From contig JAFAIM010000011.1 of assembly GCA_019236735.1 (NCBI GenBank), forward strand, positions 1-64,000: a stretch of DNA of 64,000 nt, read 5' to 3'. The notes under the pieces are model-generated. The model was not told where the DNA came from. It worked only from the letters and a program-made list of their open reading frames with translations, and searched no databases. The position numbers were made by a program, and so were the translations under genes. This document shows, one piece after another, positions 7,441 to 43,444 of this stretch (positions are counted from its first letter, which is position 1; each line of letters begins with the position of its first letter). Source of the DNA: Burkholderiaceae bacterium. Lineage in GTDB: Bacteria; Pseudomonadota; Gammaproteobacteria; Burkholderiales; Burkholderiaceae_F.

Positions 7441-8655
7441 ATGTCTTCCCCTTCCCTATTCGGACAGGTCGAACTGGCTCCGCGCGATCCGATCCTCGGG
7501 TTGACCGAGGCCTTCAACTCGGACCCTCGGCCGGGCAAAGTGAACTTGGGTGTCGGCGTGTACTACGACGAGCAAGGGCGCATCCCGCTGCTCGAATGCG
7601 TGCGGGCCGCCGAGCGTGCCCGGCTGCAAGCGCCCTCGCCGCGCGGCTACCTTCCGATCGAAGGGCCGCCGGCATACGCCGCGCAGGTTCAGCCCCTGCT
7701 GTTGGGAGCGGACTCCGAGGCGATTGCTTCGGGTCGCTGCGTGACCGCCGAGGGGCTGGGCGGGACCGGTGCGCTGCGAATCGGCGCAGAACTGGTCAAG
7801 CGGCTGCGCCCGGCTACAAAAGTGCTGATCAGCGAACCGAGCTGGGAAAACCACCGCGCCCTTTTCGAGGCGGCTGGCTATGCGGTGAGCGCCTATCCGT
7901 ACTACGACGCGGCCACCCACGGTCTGAACCTGACGGGAATGCTGGCCGCGCTTTCGGCCGCCCAACCCGGCACGCTGGTAGTGCTGCACGCTTGCTGCCA
8001 CAACCCGACCGGAGTCGATCCGGACCCGGGCCAATGGCGCCGGATCGTCGATACGGTGCGCGAGCGCGACCTCGTTCCGTTCCTCGACATCGCCTATCAG
8101 GGCTTCGGCGAGGGGTTGGAGCCCGACAGCCTTGCCGTTCGCCTGTTCGAGGCCGCGCGGATCGACACACTCGTCGCCAGCTCCTTCTCCAAGTCCTTTT
8201 CGTTGTACGGAGAGCGAGTCGGGGCGCTGACGATGCTGACGGCCTCGCGCGACGCCGCCGAACGGGTCCTCAGCCAGATCAAGCGGGTGATCCGCGCGAA
8301 CTACTCCAACCCCCCGACGCACGGCGCCGCGCTGGTGACCGCAGTGTTGGCGAGCTCCGAGCTGCGCGATCAGTGGGCGCGGGAGCTTGGTGCGATGCGC
8401 GAGCGAATCCGTTCGATGCGTGAGCGCCTGGTCGACGGACTGGCAAAGCGCGGCGTCGCCACCGACTTCTCGTTTGTGCGGCGGCAGCGCGGCATGTTCT
8501 CGTACTCCGGACTGACTGCTGCACAGGTCGAGCAGTTGCGCGAACGCTTCGCCGTATACGCTGTCAGCACCGGCAGGATCTGCGTCGCCGCCCTGAACTC
8601 AGGCAACATCGACGCGGCATGCGACGCGATTGCCGCGGTACTGAAACCACACTGA
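7441..8655 (+). CDS. tyrB: Aromatic amino acid / aspartate aminotransferase
   Basis: Class-I PLP aminotransferase, probably transferring the amino group between tyrosine, phenylalanine or aspartate and 2-oxo acids. The product is 404 residues. The N-terminus (PRDPILGLTEAFNSD, then KVNLGVGVYYD) and the motif HNPTGVDP are typical of the AspC/TyrB subgroup. Lys251 in SSFSKSFSLYGERVG is the PLP lysine. Which substrate dominates cannot be settled by eye; AspC is the alternative. The gene is separated by 15 bp from the small endonuclease gene that follows on the same strand, so the two may share a transcript. Confidence 0.88.
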   Translation: MSSPSLFGQVELAPRDPILGLTEAFNSDPRPGKVNLGVGVYYDEQGRIPLLECVRAAERARLQAPSPRGYLPIEGPPAYAAQVQPLLLGADSEAIASGRCVTAEGLGGTGALRIGAELVKRLRPATKVLISEPSWENHRALFEAAGYAVSAYPYYDAATHGLNLTGMLAALSAAQPGTLVVLHACCHNPTGVDPDPGQWRRIVDTVRERDLVPFLDIAYQGFGEGLEPDSLAVRLFEAARIDTLVASSFSKSFSLYGERVGALTMLTASRDAAERVLSQIKRVIRANYSNPPTHGAALVTAVLASSELRDQWARELGAMRERIRSMRERLVDGLAKRGVATDFSFVRRQRGMFSYSGLTAAQVEQLRERFAVYAVSTGRICVAALNSGNIDAACDAIAAVLKPH

Positions 8656-8670
8656 CCCGAACATCCGGCG

Positions 8671-9093
8671 ATGGATTCGCGGGTCAAGGGCCTCAATCCA
8701 AAGTTCGTTGGAGACATCTCGCAGTCGATGATCATGGCGGCGCTGCTCAGGAACGGGTATCGCGTTTTGATGCCGTTCGGGGATAACTTTCGCTACGATC
8801 TCGTCGCGGAAGCCGACGGTGTTTTCCGTCGTATCCAGTGCAAGACTGGCCGAATTGCAGCGGGAGCCGTACGCTTTCCAGTGGCCTCGTCGCAATATCA
8901 CCGCGGTGGTAAGCGCGAGGACTATCGAGGGCAAATCGACGCGTTCGGAGTCTTCTGCCCGGATAACAACAAATGCTATTTGGTGCCGATTGGTGACCTT
9001 CCTCTCGTGCGCCAGGCCCACCTTCGAGTGACGCCAAGCCGCAATCGTCAGTCGAAAGGCGTGCGCTGGGCCCAAGAGTATGAACTGCAGTAG
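8671..9093 (+). CDS. Group-I-intron-associated PD-(D/E)XK endonuclease (homing type)
   Basis: A 140-residue protein resembling the PD-(D/E)XK family that includes I-SspI, the homing endonuclease in the tRNA-fMet group I intron of a cyanobacterium. Visible features: KFVGDISQS near residues 11-19; YRVLMPFGDNFRYDLV with candidate metal ligand Asp43; RRIQCKTGR with Gln56 and Lys58 forming the Q-x-K core; and a C-terminal KGVRWAQEY. Family members often have Glu in the first helix; here that place appears to be Gln18, so activity needs testing. It is freestanding, not inside an intron. It ends 12 nt before a tRNA-Asn gene that carries a group I intron, which is why I read it as the intron's mobility partner (inference). 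Confidence 0.82.
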   Translation: MDSRVKGLNPKFVGDISQSMIMAALLRNGYRVLMPFGDNFRYDLVAEADGVFRRIQCKTGRIAAGAVRFPVASSQYHRGGKREDYRGQIDAFGVFCPDNNKCYLVPIGDLPLVRQAHLRVTPSRNRQSKGVRWAQEYELQ

Positions 9094-9105
9094 AATGATT
9101 TCTCT

Positions 9106-9406
9106 TCCCCGATAGCTCAGTCGGTAGAGCGACGGACTGTCAAATGGCAGCACTGTGAGGAAACTCGCAGACGAAAAATCGGGTGAACTCAGGGAATGCC
9201 CCGCAAGGGAGAATCCTGAGCCAAGCCTGCCGAAGGACAAGCAGCGAGTAGGCAGGAAGGTGCAGAGACTAGAGGGTGAGCAGTCCGAGCAATAAACCTC
9301 GTCAGCGCCCGACACCCTAACAGGTCAAGCTGAGGGTGATGAGATAGTCCAGCGCGCGTGCGCTGTAATCCGCAGGTCCCTGGTTCGAGCCCAGGTCGGG
9401 GAGCCA
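9106..9406 (+). tRNA. tRNA-Asn(GUU), interrupted by a group I intron
   Basis: Exon 1 is 9106-9140 and exon 2 is 9366-9406; joined they give a 76-nt tRNA with encoded CCA. The acceptor stem pairs TCCCCGA with TCGGGGA. D-loop (AGCTCAGTCGGTAGAGC) and T-arm (CCTGG-TTCGAGC-CCAGG) are canonical. The joined anticodon loop reads CTGTTAA, so the anticodon is GUU. The gene is broken between the second and third anticodon bases. A likely -10 box, TAGAAT at 9091-9096, overlaps the stop codon of the upstream endonuclease gene. Splicing is required for a functional tRNA. Confidence 0.95.
9141..9365 (+). ncRNA. Self-splicing group I intron in tRNA-Asn (IC3-like)
   Basis: 225-nt intron. The 5' exon ends in U and the intron ends in G, as group I chemistry requires. 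P1 can form between exon CTGT (9137-9140) and internal guide GCAG (9147-9150), giving the U-G wobble at the splice site. P2 is CTGTGAG/CTCGCAG (9153-9170) with a GAAA tetraloop. P4 pairs CTCAGG (9188-9193) with CCTGAG (9215-9220). The R and S core elements GCAGAGACTAG and GAGATAGTCC form P7 through GACTA (9267-9271) and TAGTC (9345-9349). P9 is CAGCGC/GCGCTG (9350-9365), ending at the terminal G. The small size and layout resemble the Azoarcus tRNA-Ile intron. It contains no open reading frame of its own. Confidence 0.95.
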
Positions 9407-41554: not shown

Positions 41555-43444
41555 CTAGCGCCAGGCGCCGCGCAGCGCGGCAACCTGCTCTTGCAGCAGC
41601 GCAGGCGTGGCGAGCACCGGATCGACCGGGGCGCCTACCTCGATGCCGAGCGGCGAGAAAATCCTGCGAACGATCCGCAGCGGCCATGCAGGCCCCGGCG
41701 CGCGGCTGAACACCGAGCCCCACAAACCCCGCAGCGCCACCGGTATCACCGGCACCGGGTCGCTCTCCAGCACGCGCGTCACGCCCGGACGAAATGGGTA
41801 CAAATCGCCGGTGTCGGTGATGCGGCCCTCGGGAAAGATGCATACCAGCTGGCCGTCGCGCAGCGCCTCGGACACCTGCTCGAAAGCGCGCTCCATCACT
41901 TGTTCGTCGACCCGGCGCGAAGCGATCGGGATCGCGCGTGCGTCCCGGAACAGCCACGACATCACCGGAATGCGGAAGATCGTCACGTCCATCACGAAAC
42001 GGATCGGTCGAGGGCTGACCGCCATCAGCAGCAGCGCATCGACATACGAAACATGGTTGGACACGATCAGTGCCGCTCCGCGCTCCGGAATGTGCAGCGC
42101 GCCATTGGCCTGGATCCGATACAGCGTGTGCACCAGCAGCCACGACAGGAAGCGCAGCAGGAACTCCGGCATCAGTCCGTAGATGTAGATGGCCACCGCC
42201 GCATTCAGCAGCGCTGCTGACAGCAGCAGCTCCGGCACTCCCAGCCGCGCGAACCCCAGCAGCACGGCTGCGTACGCCGCTGCAACAATCATGAACAGCG
42301 CGTTGATGATGTTGTTGGCCGCGACAATGCGGGCGCGGTGCGTCGGGGCGCAGCGCGTCTGGATCAGTGCGTACAAAGGCACGCTGTACAGGCCGGCGCA
42401 GGCCGACAGCAGGAACACGTCGATCAGCACGCGCCAATGGCGGGCGTGTCCGACGAACTGCCCGAATGTCTGCATCGAGGCAACCGGCAGGCCCCGGCAT
42501 GCGAAGTACATGTCGATGCCGAACAGCGTCATTCCGATCGATCCGAACGGCACCAGCCCGATTTCGAGCATCCGGTGCGACAAGCGCTCGCACGCCAGCG
42601 AACCGATCGCAATACCGAGAGTGAACGCCGCCGCCAGCAGATTCGCCACCTGCGGACCTCCGCCCAGGGTTCCCTTGGCGAACAGCGGGAACTGCGTCAA
42701 GAGCAAGAAGCCGTAGAACCACAGCCACGAGATCCCGAGCAGCGACAGAAACACGGCCCGGTTTTCGCGAGCGACCTGAACGCTGCGCCAGGTGACTCGA
42801 AAAGGATTCAGATCGATTTTCAGGTCCGGTGCGGGTGCCGGTGTCGCCGGGATCCATTGACTCGTCGTCACGCCCGCGCACGCGAGGGCGACGCACGCAA
42901 ACGCGCTGTACAAATGGCCGTTGGGGCCGCTATCGATCAGAACCCCGCCCGCCAGGGTTCCCAACAGGATCGCGACGAAAGTCCCCATCTCGACCATGCC
43001 GTTGCCGCCGACGATCTCGGCGCGGTCCAGGTGCTGCGGAAGGTAGGCGTATTTGGCCGGTCCGAACAGCGTCGAATGCGTTCCCATCAGCAGCACGCAG
43101 ACCAGCAAGGTGCTGAAGCTATGGACCGCGAAACCCCAAGCACCAAGCAGCATGATTGCCAGTTCGAGCCATTTGACGGCGCGCATCAGGCTCGCCTTGT
43201 CGAACCGGTCCGACAACTGCCCGCTGGTGGCGGACAACAGGACGAACGGCAGGATGAACACGGCACCGATCAGATTGATCGCGGTCGCGGCTGGGATCTG
43301 CGAGTAGGCAGCTCCCTGATAGGTCACCAGCAGCGTGAAGGAGAACTTGAATACGTTGTCGTTGGCAGCGCCTAGGAACTGAGTCCAGAAAAACGGCGCG
43401 AAACGGCGCTGCCGCAGCAGGGTGAACTGGCCGCCGCCGATCAC
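41555..43444 (-). CDS. MFS transporter fused to 1-acylglycerol-phosphate acyltransferase
   Basis: 629 residues in two parts. Residues 1-425 are a 12-helix major facilitator resembling the lysophospholipid flippase LplT (start RFAPFFWTQFLGAANDNVFK). Residues 430-629 are a PlsC-type acyltransferase with the catalytic NHVSYVD box (His464, Asp469) and FPEGRITDTG (from 537). This resembles the LplT-Aas pathway but without the acyl-ACP synthetase part. The inferred role is flipping lysophospholipid inward and re-acylating it. Confidence 0.9.
   Translation of the reverse strand: MIGGGQFTLLRQRRFAPFFWTQFLGAANDNVFKFSFTLLVTYQGAAYSQIPAATAINLIGAVFILPFVLLSATSGQLSDRFDKASLMRAVKWLELAIMLLGAWGFAVHSFSTLLVCVLLMGTHSTLFGPAKYAYLPQHLDRAEIVGGNGMVEMGTFVAILLGTLAGGVLIDSGPNGHLYSAFACVALACAGVTTSQWIPATPAPAPDLKIDLNPFRVTWRSVQVARENRAVFLSLLGISWLWFYGFLLLTQFPLFAKGTLGGGPQVANLLAAAFTLGIAIGSLACERLSHRMLEIGLVPFGSIGMTLFGIDMYFACRGLPVASMQTFGQFVGHARHWRVLIDVFLLSACAGLYSVPLYALIQTRCAPTHRARIVAANNIINALFMIVAAAYAAVLLGFARLGVPELLLSAALLNAAVAIYIYGLMPEFLLRFLSWLLVHTLYRIQANGALHIPERGAALIVSNHVSYVDALLLMAVSPRPIRFVMDVTIFRIPVMSWLFRDARAIPIASRRVDEQVMERAFEQVSEALRDGQLVCIFPEGRITDTGDLYPFRPGVTRVLESDPVPVIPVALRGLWGSVFSRAPGPAWPLRIVRRIFSPLGIEVGAPVDPVLATPALLQEQVAALRGAWR

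Follow-up and report, generated by a model that had tools for sequence, protein, structure and literature searches.

Introduction

The closest described relative of the system reported here is I-Ssp6803I (also I-SspI), a PD-(D/E)XK homing endonuclease encoded in a group I intron of a tRNA-fMet gene (PMC1995217). Group I introns are also described in the tRNA-Ile2 genes of Acidovorax and Burkholderia (PMC8450103), and a free-standing GIY-YIG endonuclease, SegB, is described in association with phage tRNAs (PMC13096335). Collaborative homing, which pairs a free-standing endonuclease gene with a linked ORF-less intron, is described for two phages in a review (PMC3984707). How endonuclease genes and self-splicing introns came to be joined is an open question, and collaborative homing is a proposed intermediate. 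The cyanophage psbA gene with its free-standing endonuclease is reportedly an example of such homing in trans. A literature search that covered few subscription journals returned no example of an intron in a bacterial tRNA-Asn gene that has a free-standing endonuclease gene next to it. Here we describe such an arrangement in a 64,000-nt stretch of DNA from a Burkholderiaceae bacterium (contig JAFAIM010000011.1), hereafter the window.

Results

Layout of the tRNA-Asn locus

The forward strand of the window carries an ORF that starts with ATG at 8671, ends with TAG at 9093 and encodes a product of 140 aa. The ORF begins 15 nt after the stop codon of an aminotransferase gene (7441-8655, forward strand), which is the customary upstream neighbour of tRNA-Asn in the family (61 of 67 genomes) and whose product is, by resemblance, presumably of the aspartate/aromatic type. 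On the other side, 12 nt separate the ORF end from the start of a tRNA-Asn(GUU) gene at 9106. A -10-like hexamer read from the sequence, TAGAAT (9091-9096, forward strand), overlaps the ORF stop codon. As a consensus promoter scan of the ORF end yielded this -10-like match alone, with neither a full promoter nor a consensus -35, the hexamer was regarded only as a possible promoter element of the tRNA gene.

The tRNA-Asn gene is interrupted in the anticodon, between tRNA positions 35 and 36. Its 5′ half (positions 1-35; 9106-9140, ending in GGACTGT) and its 3′ half including CCA (9366-9406, starting with TAATCC) flank a 225-nt ORF-less group I intron (9141-9365), all on the forward strand and with bounds taken from the exon sequence. 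The Rfam model RF00028 (group I intron) matched positions 9131-9365 with 58.2 bits (E = 3.5e-12, gathering score 50). ARAGORN did not report the tRNA-Asn at 9106, because its anticodon is split by the intron. In predicted folds, exon CUGU and the first intron base are paired with GGCAG as P1, which places U.G at the 5′ splice site. When three genes with the intron were aligned, six pairs were changed on both sides, and five of these six belong to the intron itself. The window intron is putatively self-splicing. With 47 nt between its end and the start of the intron, the ORF lies outside the intron, and the locus does not have the composite, intron-encoded layout. The free-standing position of the ORF just ahead of the tRNA had been correctly read in the preliminary description. 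The locus thus links a free-standing endonuclease gene (see below) to an ORF-less intron, the arrangement expected of collaborative homing. Elsewhere in the window, on the reverse strand at 42665-42786, the Rfam family Bcj11 (Burkholderia RNA 11) was matched with 49.9 bits against a gathering score of 49.

Protein family and predicted fold of the ORF product

The ORF product was assigned to PDDEXK_5 (PF11645) by the Pfam profile with E = 1.9e-39 and a score of 135.3 bits, far over the cut-off of 26.1. The only PDB sequence match of the protein was 2ost, the structure of I-Ssp6803I (E = 8.8e-9 with the single sequence and 2.9e-13 with a profile). An AlphaFold2 model based on a 29-row alignment reached a pLDDT of 88.4 and replaced a model from a 2-row alignment that had reached 40. 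The predicted fold aligned with 2ost_A over 131 of 140 residues (Z 15.2, rmsd 2.6), the runner-up entry scoring Z 9.6. NCBIfam profiles gave no match to the ORF, and its match in PHROGs, phrog_5018, is annotated as function unknown. In comparison with the ORF of a separately found MAG (locus L001), pN was 0.23 and pS was 0.82, which indicates that the window ORF is under purifying selection. These results confirm, at a level well above chance, that the ORF is a real gene of the I-Ssp6803I-type (PDDEXK_5) family; a likeness to I-SspI had been noticed earlier from the letters alone, and both the Pfam search proposed at that time and the structural comparison bore it out.

Chromosomal distribution of the ORF and the intron

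Within the family, the ORF was present in one of 67 genomes, the window's own. In an order-wide sample it was present in 4 of 399 genomes. The same 399 were searched for tRNA-Asn genes with an intron by means of a pattern that would overlook introns with different P1 sequences, and six genomes matched; two of these were chance matches outside tRNA, and the remaining four were exactly the four genomes with the ORF. The chance of two identical sets of four is 1e-9, or 1e-7 when genomes G241 and G411, which belong to one genus, are counted once. The four genomes with both ORF and intron rest on few lineages, about three. In wider sampling, the window's own genome was the only one to match the intron pattern in the class sample (1 of 369) and the only one to match PF11645 in the phylum sample (1 of 299). 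A search of plasmids with the split tRNA gave partial matches only, covering at most 26% of the query; one Halorubrum plasmid contained a short protein match to the ORF.

Sites lacking both elements are common in the family. Setting aside the window and G066 (a sister species in the same genus), an uninterrupted tRNA-Asn gene was found 3′ of the aminotransferase gene at 27 of 28 family loci, the exception being a locus (L041) where the script found no tRNA-Asn downstream. ORF and intron were jointly absent from the empty alleles, in the order sample and at the family loci alike, as collaborative homing would have it. Searches of five intron-bearing genomes (G000, which is the window's own, G066, G129, G241 and G411) with the exact pattern, with up to 3 mismatches and with BLAST detected no uninterrupted tRNA-Asn gene, a result limited by the incompleteness of draft genomes, G000 included. 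Eleven other loci matched by BLAST were checked and proved to be different tRNAs, the one exception being an intact tRNA-Asn in a genome outside these five, G761.

The surroundings of the paired elements vary. The L001 locus has the same layout as the window up to a contig end that cuts off the intron. In the window, L005 and L006, the ORF is preceded by the aminotransferase gene; in L001 and L004, other sequence stands upstream. As the upstream genes differ in L004 and L001, the ORF plus the split tRNA-Asn gene form the constant unit.

Intron types and decay of the ORF

The tRNA-Asn introns are compact (214-254 nt) and fall into two types. Type 1 introns (window, L004 and L026) are 83-93% identical to each other, and the type 2 introns of L005 and L006 are 85% identical. 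Both types have the same insertion site and ORFs of this family next to them, and the identity between the types is only 54-59%; this is level with the 48-59% identity of the tRNA-Asn introns to introns of tRNA-Ile, tRNA-Leu and tRNA-Arg. Such low identity fits independent arrival of the two introns at one site, and a single origin of the tRNA-Asn introns was not rejected by the AU test (p = 0.27). In the ORF tree, the window and L001 grouped with L005 and L006 (support 94/93), away from L004. Set against the intron types, this branching suggests that ORFs and introns may have been reassorted; in AU tests on the ORF tree, neither a tree holding the window, L001 and L004 together (p = 0.29) nor the other alternative (p = 0.22) was rejected.

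At several loci the ORF is damaged. In G066 the intron is kept and the ORF is reduced to a 17-codon in-frame relic, the end of which (QEYELQ-stop, translated by eye) is identical in protein sequence to the window ORF. In L005 the frame is open, but the residue equivalent to Lys58 is Arg and the usual stop codon is missing, and in L006 the ORF is truncated at the 5′ end. A second, ORF-less group I intron, apparently in tRNA-Leu(UAA) as judged by eye, was observed in G000 (L064, contig C15, 2838-2986) and G066 (L063, contig C61, 12665-12865), with scores of 33.5 and 37.1 bits, respectively, below the gathering score.

Relatives in phages

No relatives were recovered from viruses with single proteins as queries, whereas a scan with four close proteins yielded 33 loci. 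After removal of the near-identical loci L094, L107, L108, L112 and L115, 28 non-redundant phage loci remained, including one (L117) that is a 43-aa fragment; the ORFs of L086 and L109 were read from a start after the tRNA and not from the longest start given by the script. The identity of the phage relatives is 37-54%. A tRNA gene lies at most 50 nt away from 25 of the 28 ORFs. At the local frequency of tRNA-Asn (0.10; 19 of 190 tRNAs), the probability of at least 14 of 25 ORFs being next to tRNA-Asn is 1.5e-8. Among named phage records, 46 contained a match; seven were examined, and six had a tRNA within 350 nt. The directly adjoining tRNA is tRNA-Asn in HSTV-4 and FKP10, and HATV-2 has no tRNA. 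The phage regions have other features of their own: one ORF (L096, 1501-2172; 223 aa) joins the endonuclease to a C-terminal extension that by eye resembles a zinc finger or HTH, and the tRNA regions near the ORF contain RNase P RNA class A (L091, 2438-2770), GOLLD (L085, 2467-2907) and ROOL (L014, 2430-3016).

None of the 33 phage loci contained a match to Intron_gpI at the gathering score. The preliminary description had held that finding the ORF conserved next to intronless tRNA-Asn genes would speak against its proposal, and this is the situation at 14 of the 28 non-redundant viral loci. Its question whether relatives with intronless tRNA-Asn also lack the ORF was answered in the affirmative by the empty chromosomal sites and in the negative by the phages. 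As the phage relatives stand beside intact tRNA-Asn, the ORF lives and spreads there without an intron; the intron is not needed for the persistence of the ORF, which counts against collaborative homing. The intronless phage form makes the endonuclease an independent tRNA-associated selfish gene and not a part of the intron. As half of the phage relatives are beside other tRNAs or none, specificity varies.

All 30 family copies of tRNA-Asn share one 15-base anticodon arm, CGGACTGTTAATCCG, whereas the arm of the ORF-adjacent phage tRNA-Asn differs from the bacterial arm by 2-7 bases in 16 of 16 genes. This divergence would fit self-immunity of the phage genes, though the set compared consists of ORF-adjacent genes only and other causes may set phage tRNAs apart from those of bacteria.

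These data also bear on the strongest competing explanation, namely that the ORF is solely a phage-derived free-standing tRNA endonuclease practising intronless homing, the intron being independent and the linkage a product of shared ancestry. The phage relatives, free-standing by intact tRNAs, speak for it, the chromosomal lineages are few, and the tree tests leave a single inheritance possible. It is harder to reconcile with the exact co-occurrence of ORF and intron in 399 genomes, with the three different upstream contexts and with the presence of two unlike introns at one site alongside ORFs of this family, and we consider it unlikely. The co-occurrence and the empty sites support collaborative homing, the mechanism put forward earlier for this locus, on bacterial chromosomes, and the phages depart from it.

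The tRNA-Arg branch and an island copy

Relatives of the ORF were found in 6 of 369 genomes of the class sample, the window's own included. One of them (L020, 47-48% identical) resides on a chromosomal island next to tRNA-Arg(ACG); the tRNA-Asn gene of its genome is intronless, and this counts against collaborative homing. The genome of this island copy, G761, has two group I introns (L059 and L062, host genes read by eye), one in tRNA-Ile(CAU) and the other seemingly in the tmRNA T arm.

The remaining four copies are associated with tRNA-Arg and include a distant, intron-borne branch (the tRNA-Arg branch). In L023 and L024, the ORF lies within an intron of a tRNA-Arg gene (UCU by exon reading), and in L021 it lies in a similar intron, the 5′ half of the tRNA being missing. 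The introns of these three loci reached no Rfam match and were recognised by eye and by similarity (similarity for two). In L021 (1240-2000), the intron lacking the 5′ tRNA-Arg half is fused to a damaged tRNA-Pro. In L022, the ORF is free-standing before an intronless tRNA-Arg(UCU) and the equivalent of Gln56 is Ser. L022, L023 and L024 represent one tRNA-Pro/Arg/His locus, at which the ORF is free-standing in one species and inside the tRNA-Arg intron in others. A general restriction of the ORF to intron-bearing loci was ruled out by the phage loci and L022.

The intron-borne copies in L023 and L024 raise the question of whether the window gene, too, was formerly within its intron and escaped to the flank. 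Such an origin is very improbable, given that, beyond bacteria, its nearest relatives are free-standing phage genes, that the tRNA-Asn introns are so compact, and that the intron-borne branch shares merely 27-31% identity with the window ORF.

Candidate catalytic residues

Asp43, Gln56 and Lys58, named as candidate catalytic residues in the preliminary description, were unchanged in all 29 aligned proteins. Position 18, where a possible change from Glu to Gln had cast doubt on activity, is Glu in 23 of these proteins, Gln in 4, Thr in 1 and a gap in 1. Besides the window protein, Gln18 occurs in L001, L004 and the phage loci L090 and L109, and the tRNA-Arg branch has valine or leucine at this position. 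The solved 2ost chain likewise has Gln at the equivalent position, which we take to be possibly an engineered change. The recurrence of Gln in other relatives rules out the substitution as a sign of a dead enzyme and, together with purifying selection on the gene, leaves the earlier doubt unsupported. An inactive or domesticated protein (such as a regulator that binds the DNA of the tRNA gene) that lost catalysis through Gln18 is hardly credible: Glu does prevail at this position, in 23 of the 28 rows without a gap, but Gln, Val and Leu are found there in relatives, the D-Q-K set is intact and serves as the catalytic residues of the structurally related DREN nuclease domain (PMC12205087), and the window ORF is under purifying selection.

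Discussion

Taken together, the best explanation of the locus is collaborative homing by an I-Ssp6803I-type endonuclease and a group I intron at tRNA-Asn, with cleavage of that gene as predicted activity; we put its probability at roughly two in three. In phages, the ORF lineage is a free-standing selfish gene by tRNA genes, most often tRNA-Asn, and entry into chromosomes would have been from phages, movement running in that direction. The predicted target of the PDDEXK_5 enzyme is the anticodon arm of uninterrupted tRNA-Asn genes. The intron would destroy this site in a carrier, and the carrier chromosome would therefore be immune. When an intronless tRNA-Asn allele is met, it would be cut and repaired from the intron-bearing copy, the aminotransferase gene (7441-8655) could serve as a homology arm, and repair would transfer the intron and the flanking upstream ORF together. 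Only 47 nt separate the ORF end from the insertion site, so that limited resection would be enough to bring the ORF along. After fixation, the ORF would decay and the intron would remain, and the relic of G066 would represent this stage.

An extension of collaborative homing, which we offer tentatively and hold to be possible but not probable, is that the chromosomal endonuclease and its intron form an addiction pair, much like toxin and antidote, on the only tRNA-Asn gene, seeded by phage ORF-tRNA cassettes, and that the family displays every step, from the free endonuclease of phages, via pairing with two different introns at this locus and its kin, to residence inside the intron in the tRNA-Arg branch. 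If so, and with an active endonuclease, an allele that lost the intron would be cut in an essential gene, so that precise loss would be punished.

In related species, this bacterial tRNA gene is met in nature as empty, paired and decayed alleles; the finished composite form, with the endonuclease inside the intron, occurs in the same family at another tRNA. Through the series free, beside an intron and inside an intron, the origin proposed for mobile introns becomes open to testing in bacteria, and directly so, as one small enzyme and short DNA targets would suffice.

In comparison with known systems, the window protein shares with I-Ssp6803I of the Synechocystis tRNA-fMet gene a PDDEXK_5-type sequence and fold and the association with a tRNA group I intron, at an identity of about 22% over the matched part. 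I-Ssp6803I is described as encoded inside its own intron (PMC1995217), whereas the window ORF is outside and upstream, and the tRNA is tRNA-Asn. The collaborative homing covered by the review takes place in phage genomes (PMC3984707), whereas the window case is chromosomal, in a bacterium, and concerns a tRNA gene. SegB, as described, is likewise a free-standing tRNA-adjacent selfish endonuclease of phages (PMC13096335), but it is a GIY-YIG enzyme, whereas the window family is PD-(D/E)XK and also occurs in chromosomes beside introns. The ORF-less group I introns of bacterial tRNA genes belong to the same ribozyme class as the window intron, which differs from those of tRNA-Ile2 in its tRNA-Asn host and in having an endonuclease gene next door.
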